Source: Pyrodictiaceae archaeon
GTDB taxonomy: Archaea > Thermoproteota > Thermoprotei_A > Sulfolobales > Pyrodictiaceae
Assembly: GCA_027028845.1 (NCBI GenBank)
Contig: JALVHV010000072.1
Coordinates: 1-33,911, forward strand
Reading direction: 5' to 3'
Length of the DNA: 33,911 nucleotides
The notes beneath the pieces were generated by a model that did not search any database, was not told the DNA's origin, and saw only the letters and a list, made by a program, of their open reading frames with translations. Of the stretch, positions 17,585 through 18,775 are shown one piece after another. The first letter of the stretch is position 1; every line of letters starts with the position of its first letter. A program made the translations under genes and the position numbers.

Positions 17585-17767
17585 CTATTTTTGTTCCCCT
17601 TTCTCGCTCTCCTGGAGCTCTTTTTCTAGCTTCTTTAGCTCCTCCTCCAGCTCTTTCTCTATTTCCTCGATGGGCTTAGGAGGCGGAGTTGTTGCTAACG
17701 TGTATCCTATCCAGGCAAGTATACCCATTACTGCGGCGACTGCTACGAATACTGTTATTTTTATCAA
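17585..17767 (-). CDS. Small membrane protein, C-terminal part; coding probably extends in frame to about 17890
   Basis: MIKITVFVAVAAVMGILAWIGYTLATTPPPKPIEEIEKELEEELKKLEKELQESEKGEQK from a TTG. The same frame upstream encodes another TM helix (KAVGIGLLVIGIIVILFYAVALFDPGLIGLSNNFSELL) without an ATG/GTG/TTG. Confidence 0.65.
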   Translation of the reverse strand: MIKITVFVAVAAVMGILAWIGYTLATTPPPKPIEEIEKELEEELKKLEKELQESEKGEQK

Positions 17768-17947
17768 TAATTCACTGAAATTATTGCTTAGCCCTATTAG
17801 TCCTGGATCAAATAGGGCTACCGCGTAGAATAGAATAACTATTATGCCTATGACTAGTAGGCCTATGCCTACTGCCTTATCGCTTACCGTTTTCCCTCAC
17901 CCCTCATACTATGTACATGAACCTGCTTTTTGCCCGTTCACCCTGAT

Positions 17948-18775
17948 TCATGTTAGCCACTCTTTTAAAACGCTACGGGCATTATTAGCAGCTATAATAG
18001 CTTGCCCCTTGCACGCTACTACATCGTTGCTGCTGCAATCGGATTCTAGTACGACATAGCTTGCCTTGGACAGGTTTTCTGCACTAGGTGCTTCTAGCCA
18101 GTTTATAGATCCGCAGCCTATGTGGAGGTGCTCGTCCTTTTCCCCGTGGTTATCGTGTACATGTATGCATACGGGCTCTAGTGGCTTAATAGCGCGGTCT
18201 GCCGCGCTCAACGAATAGCCGTTAAGGAAGGCATGGCCTGTGTCTATACATGCTCTGAGCTTGGGGCTATCTATCTGGATTACAAGCTTTCTGAGAGCCT
18301 CTATTTTGTTGAGCGGCTTAGCTCCTGAAGAGTTCTCAACAGCCACTATGGGTAGGTCCTCTCGCTCCGCATAGTCTGCTAGCTCAGCAAAGAATCTCTT
18401 ATTCACCCACTCCGCTCTATAGCTACCTATTCTGCGTGAACTAAATCCGTGGAATACAACTATTTCCGCACCATAGCTCCCAGCTATATCAAGGAATATC
18501 TTTGCCTCGTCCACAGCGTGCTCTAGACCACGCCCTATGTATAATAGGAAGTAGTCCTCCCAGGGAGCATGTACGGTTACTGGTCTCACTCCAAGCCTTA
18601 CGGCTTGTAAGAGAGCAAGCCGCATAGTATTGGGTACTGAGGGGTAATCAATATCCATTCTCTCGACACTAGCATAGTTAATATCTATTAGCTCGAAGCC
18701 CATGCTGTGTAGCGCTTCGACGGCGTCAACGATATCTAGTGGTATTATCCGAGTAGATGCAACTAGTTTGGCCAA
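17948..18775 (-). CDS. Sugar phosphate isomerase/epimerase-like TIM barrel (AP endonuclease family 2)
   Basis: VTVHAPWEDYF, AEIVVFHGFSS, VAVENSSGAKPLNKIEALRKLV, RACIDTGHAFLNGYS, CIHVHDNHGEKDEHLHIGCGSINW. Confidence 0.85.
   Translation of the reverse strand: MAKLVASTRIIPLDIVDAVEALHSMGFELIDINYASVERMDIDYPSVPNTMRLALLQAVRLGVRPVTVHAPWEDYFLLYIGRGLEHAVDEAKIFLDIAGSYGAEIVVFHGFSSRRIGSYRAEWVNKRFFAELADYAEREDLPIVAVENSSGAKPLNKIEALRKLVIQIDSPKLRACIDTGHAFLNGYSLSAADRAIKPLEPVCIHVHDNHGEKDEHLHIGCGSINWLEAPSAENLSKASYVVLESDCSSNDVVACKGQAIIAANNARSVLKEWLT

Follow-up and report, generated by a model that had tools for sequence, protein, structure and literature searches.

A probable ACG start codon directed by a Shine-Dalgarno sequence in a gene for a small two-helix membrane protein of Pyrodictiaceae

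Results

The locus and its protein product

The window, by which we mean the whole 33,911-nt stretch of DNA analysed, corresponds to contig C72 in a genome of 1.39 Mb, 87% complete, whose relatives are Pyrodictiaceae. On the minus strand, an open frame spans positions 17585–17896, counts 103 codons from GGG and ends at TAG 17587–17585. Reading this strand bears out the original prediction that the region 17585–17907 encodes a small membrane protein with no usable start codon: the frame runs upstream to an ACG and then into TGA 17899–17897, and no ATG, GTG or TTG lies in frame between this TGA and the conserved N-terminus, the first being the internal TTG at 17767. The TTG at 17767–17765 is the sole canonical in-frame start that yields the listed ORF of 60 aa. 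The ATG at 17907–17905 in the neighbouring frame, also recorded by the original prediction, does open a short overlapping ORF. The features of the locus are as follows.

17585–17890, minus strand: coding sequence, 101 aa, two-transmembrane (two-TM) protein with a charged C-terminal tail (motif WIGYTLATTPPPKPIEEIEKE), from the open frame, the relatives and dN/dS against G004
17693–17758, minus strand: TM helix 2, approximate, by eye from the sequence
17765–17767, minus strand: internal TTG, start of the ORF in the ORF list; its use would remove TM helix 1
17810–17875, minus strand: TM helix 1, approximate, by eye from the sequence
17852–17876, minus strand: hairpin AGUAGGC-AUAG-GCCUACU, beginning about +15 from ACG, weak evidence
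17884–17907, minus strand: overlapping 7-codon ORF ATG AGG GGT GAG GGA AAA CGG TAA; its start in G004 is GTG
17888–17890, minus strand: ACG, proposed start codon, from canonical starts at this column in orthologues and its retention in G004
17890–17896, minus strand: heptamer G GGA AAA, proposed slippery site, not conserved in G004
17891–17896, minus strand: 6-nt spacer GGGAAA between Shine-Dalgarno sequence (SD) and ACG, the modal spacing in G004 genes
17897–17899, minus strand: in-frame TGA, upstream limit of the open frame, overlapping the SD, also in G004
17897–17903, minus strand: SD GGGGTGA, able to pair with the 16S 3′ tail GGATCACCTCCT, from duplex energy and the same SD in G004
17963–17970, minus strand: TATA-like TTTTAAAA, possible promoter, by eye, also in G004

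The encoded sequence in the open frame reads GK-TVSDKAVGIGLLVIGIIVILFYAVALF...WIGYTLATTPPPKPIEEIEKE..., which points to a small membrane protein whose charged tail would face the cytoplasm and which might act as a scaffold or an accessory subunit. The 101-aa product matched no Pfam or NCBIfam profile above the curated cut-off and no PDB chain, and the gene neighbourhood, which we considered as a clue to function, is not conserved between lineages. The two-TM gene is encoded in 28 of 39 relatives, and a scan of the collection found the family across Thermoproteota and in Bathyarchaeia.

Orthologues place the start at the ACG column

We compared 110 family loci across Thermoproteota, some of which represent the same genome fetched twice. 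A canonical start is found within −6 to +3 codons of the ACG column of the window in 106 of these loci; if the canonical codon closest to the conserved core is taken for each locus, 81 coincide exactly with this column. The alignment is direct in locus L016, where ATG GTA AGT GAT AAA stands against ACG GTA AGC GAT AAG of the window, and G003, a member of the same genus, has a TTG start adjoining the position of the ACG column. The four loci lacking a canonical start near the column are the window, the sister species G004, which appears twice (as L003 and L032, one and the same contig), and the bathyarchaeal locus L109:5001. Within Pyrodictiaceae, ACG in the two-TM gene is confined to two closely related species, a point against its use as a start. 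In favour of it, L109 carries ACG independently at the same column (ACG CAT AAA GAT CAG), where the related locus L098 has ATG (ATG CAT AAG GAT CAG); an in-frame ATG 8 codons downstream of the ACG in L109 is again a point against.

The codons upstream of the internal TTG evolve as coding sequence

G004 is a sister species with DNA about 91% identical to that of the window, and its copy of the locus lies on a separately assembled contig (JALVSY010000016, with a coverage of 168x given in the contig name). It carries the same TGA, SD (GGGGTGA), ACG and spacing, with differences in the neighbouring bases. Over the whole gene, comparison with G004 gives dS 0.47, dN 0.017 and dN/dS of about 0.04, a value that speaks against a pseudogene. 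In the stretch of 42 codons that precedes the internal TTG, there are 10 synonymous changes and 1 nonsynonymous change (dS 0.41, dN 0.011, dN/dS of about 0.03). The N-terminus with helix 1 is therefore translated and selected, and the substitution pattern indicates that strong purifying selection acts from the ACG onward. Family members encode helix 1 as well, the additional TM helix that the original prediction had assigned to the upstream extension.

Shine-Dalgarno sequence, spacing and initiator tRNA

The 16S 3′ tail GGATCACCTCCT was read in G003. Its duplex with the SD upstream of the ACG has an energy of −11.0 kcal/mol; 0.9% of random sites and 18% of genes with canonical starts pair at least as strongly. 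In G004 genes, the commonest spacing between GGTGA and a canonical start is 6–7 nt, in a count where the choice of start is slightly biased towards 6. The initiator tRNA of G003 has the anticodon CAU, A1-U72 and a GGG/CCC anticodon stem; by eye, the tRNA set of this genome contains no second initiator-type tRNA with an anticodon matching ACG, UCG or AUA. An altered or dedicated initiator tRNA was therefore rejected: only the standard CAU type is present in G003, so that ACG would be read through a mismatch at mid-codon.

The hairpin downstream of the ACG is predicted to melt by 95 °C. Around it, 16 codons in a row are identical between the window and G004, a run that is not significant (permutation P 0.08). 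For both reasons a functional hairpin was not retained, although a hairpin beginning at about +15 might aid initiation.

Alternative routes to the two-TM protein

Taken together, the orthologue starts, the SD, the selection pattern, the standard initiator tRNA and the parallel cases in other genes described below support the odd initiation that the original prediction had listed among its options, and we consider it highly likely that translation begins at ACG 17890–17888 and proceeds in a single frame, directed by the SD and using the CAU initiator tRNA. Four other routes were weighed against this reading.

Re-initiation is improbable, yet it fares best among them. Here, ribosomes would translate the 7-codon ORF, stop at TAA 17886–17884 and restart at the ACG. 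This ORF has a start in both species (ATG in the window, GTG in G004) and its TAA lies just past the ACG, so that it could couple termination to re-initiation. The conservation of the ORF, however, largely follows from the SD contained within it, and the start codon would still be ACG; the 7-codon ORF is probably incidental.

A programmed −1 frameshift, by which ribosomes starting at ATG 17907 would slip at G GGA AAA and make a product MRGEGKTVSDK..., was put forward in the original prediction as a source of the two-TM protein, and is very unlikely. The canonical heptamer is indeed present in the window (17896–17890), with an upstream start in the window (ATG) as in G004 (GTG). In G004, however, the site reads GTG AGG GGT GAG GAA AAA CGG TAA; this destroys the heptamer, yet purifying selection on the gene persists. 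The orthologues begin at the ACG column in a single frame and carry no recoded or fused N-terminal extension, the outcome that the original prediction itself had named as refuting a frameshift. The G-rich stretch taken for a slippery site is explained by the SD GGGGTGA and its 6-nt spacer, and by eye the ATG at 17907 has no SD of its own. The SD abuts the heptamer instead of lying 10–14 nt upstream of it. Structures that stimulate −1 frameshifting are usually found 5–9 nt downstream of the heptamer, whereas the hairpin begins 13–14 nt after it and melts by 95 °C in the prediction.

A sequencing or assembly error, either an ACG that is really ATG or a wrong base in the G/A runs, has a still smaller probability. 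The window comes from a single metagenome-assembled genome at 87% completeness, where one T-to-C error would suffice, but the contig of a different species, at 168x, shows the same ACG, TGA and spacing. Initiation at the internal TTG (17767), which has in its favour the only canonical in-frame start and would give a 60-aa protein with one helix, is the least probable, given the coding evolution of the 42 codons upstream and the presence of helix 1 in family members. Read-through of TGA 17899 was also rejected: by eye, the frame upstream of it soon meets a TAG, within a few codons, and the interval holds no start.

Further genes with non-canonical triplets at the start position

Roughly 500 conserved frames from contig 16 of G004, covering 537 kb of this genome, were compared with the complete genome of G003, using only a filtered screen; unfiltered versions were swamped by antisense frames and by conservation of upstream DNA. 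The clean cases beyond the target gene are gltX, a ModE-like gene and a NusA-like gene. Several hits (AmmeMemoRadiSam-like, LivH, NrfD and others) were not counted, since by eye they resembled truncated genes, frameshifts or genes whose canonical start lies further in. Separately, a flippase-like gene (G004 C16:247030–248497) has a conserved N-terminus that may start at CTG in G004 and G003.

The NusA-like KH gene (NCBIfam PRK06418; L114:15816–16349, equivalent to G004 C16:55816–56349, and L313–L329) lacks a canonical start in 17 genomes, 14 from Pyrodictiaceae and 3 from a sister family (f10). All of them share the arrangement GGTG(A/G), about 6 nt, [T/A]CG and then GTN; in L324 the site reads GGGGTGAAGGAGTT ACG, where a strict count from the A of GGTGA gives a spacing of 7 nt. 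In another family (f4), TTG or ATG occupies the same column. In an alignment of the opening 30 codons from 16 genomes, no triplet other than [T/A]CG keeps its third base unchanged throughout (G in 16/16), compared with shares of only 26% for TCG and 23% for ACG within their codon boxes. This pattern looks like a non-canonical start conserved throughout the clade. The PRK06418 profile begins at the GTN codon after [T/A]CG, and in some distant orthologues this position is a GTG start; a start at GTN (GTA, GTC or GTT, at a spacing of 9) instead of NCG is possible.

The gltX gene (NCBIfam glutamate–tRNA ligase; L120:16446–18248, minus strand, L240–L243 and L246) has ATA at its start position. It reads GGAGGTGG, with ATA 6 nt after GGTGG, in G000, G001, G003 and G004; G002 has ATA at the same place with a slightly different spacer, so that ATA is found in all five members of the genus, and at this column G006, from the sister genus, carries GTG. 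In strength, the SD of gltX falls within the top 0.5%. The ModE-like HTH gene (L135:8210–8551, minus strand, L300 and L301) shows GGTGA, 6 nt and ACG in G004 and G001. Its orthologue in G003 has an ATG start about one codon further upstream, and its SD is ordinary (−7.4).

Discussion

On the comparative evidence, ACG 17890–17888 is very probably the codon actually used to start this gene. In the mechanism we propose, the 30S subunit would dock by pairing of GGGGTGA with the 16S 3′ end, which would place ACG in the P site, and the ordinary CAU initiator tRNA would accept it with one mid-codon mismatch. Methionine would be inserted at ACG and the protein would probably begin with it; expression would be expected to be lower than from ATG, with the strong SD offsetting the poor codon. 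According to one report, archaeal aIF1 makes initiation complexes on non-AUG codons less stable (PMC6237735), which counts against initiation at ACG; strong SDs may be needed to compensate for this effect.

Beyond this gene, we suggest with more doubt than confidence that initiation is relaxed in Pyrodictiaceae and the sister family, such that the SD fixes the P-site triplet and ACG, UCG and AUA can serve as stable starts, the NCG of the NusA-like gene having persisted through two families or more, perhaps as a start that is weak by design and regulated, as in infC and sigR. As far as our literature search showed, archaeal non-canonical starts have so far been mostly isolated annotation oddities, and a full-text search with partial coverage of the literature found no report of published ACG starts in archaea. 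Here, the comparison of genomes yields one gene with a probable ACG start kept between species, together with a small set of others, among them those for a tRNA synthetase and a NusA-like factor, with SD-anchored non-canonical starts. Gene finders limited to ATG, GTG and TTG truncate or miss such genes, the target gene being an example. The UCG/ACG triplet in 17 genomes makes it testable how far aIF1 and the SD tolerate a mid-codon mismatch at initiation, and raises the question of whether weak starts regulate archaeal genes.

Four known systems bear comparison. In dnaX-type −1 frameshifting, the likeness is an X XXY YYZ heptamer with a nearby SD-like sequence; unlike that system, the window has a heptamer that is not conserved, an SD that is not 10–14 nt upstream and orthologues in a single frame. 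Bacterial infC starts at AUU. Streptomyces sigR has a GTC start that is repressed by IF3 (PMC5472188). Both resemble the present case in that a conserved non-canonical start limits the expression of one gene; they are, however, bacterial, regulatory and experimentally shown, and archaea use aIF1, aIF1A and aIF2. Frequent non-ATG initiation is found in the same or a neighbouring lineage: TTG starts are given for 52% of proteins in Aeropyrum pernix (PMC5911459, citing Yamazaki 2006), and Pyrodictium delaneyi has 45% ATG, 30% GTG and 25% TTG (PMC5556600). These are the usual three codons and mismatch the anticodon at the first base only, whereas with ACG, UCG and AUA the mismatch falls on the second or third base. 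A precedent is L12ae of Staphylothermus marinus (Smar_1096), with a predicted ATC start (PMC2678158), which also comes from a hyperthermophile of the Thermoproteota and whose non-canonical start was deduced by alignment to normally starting orthologues. That case concerns another codon and gene in one species, whereas here the start is kept between species and several genes are concerned.
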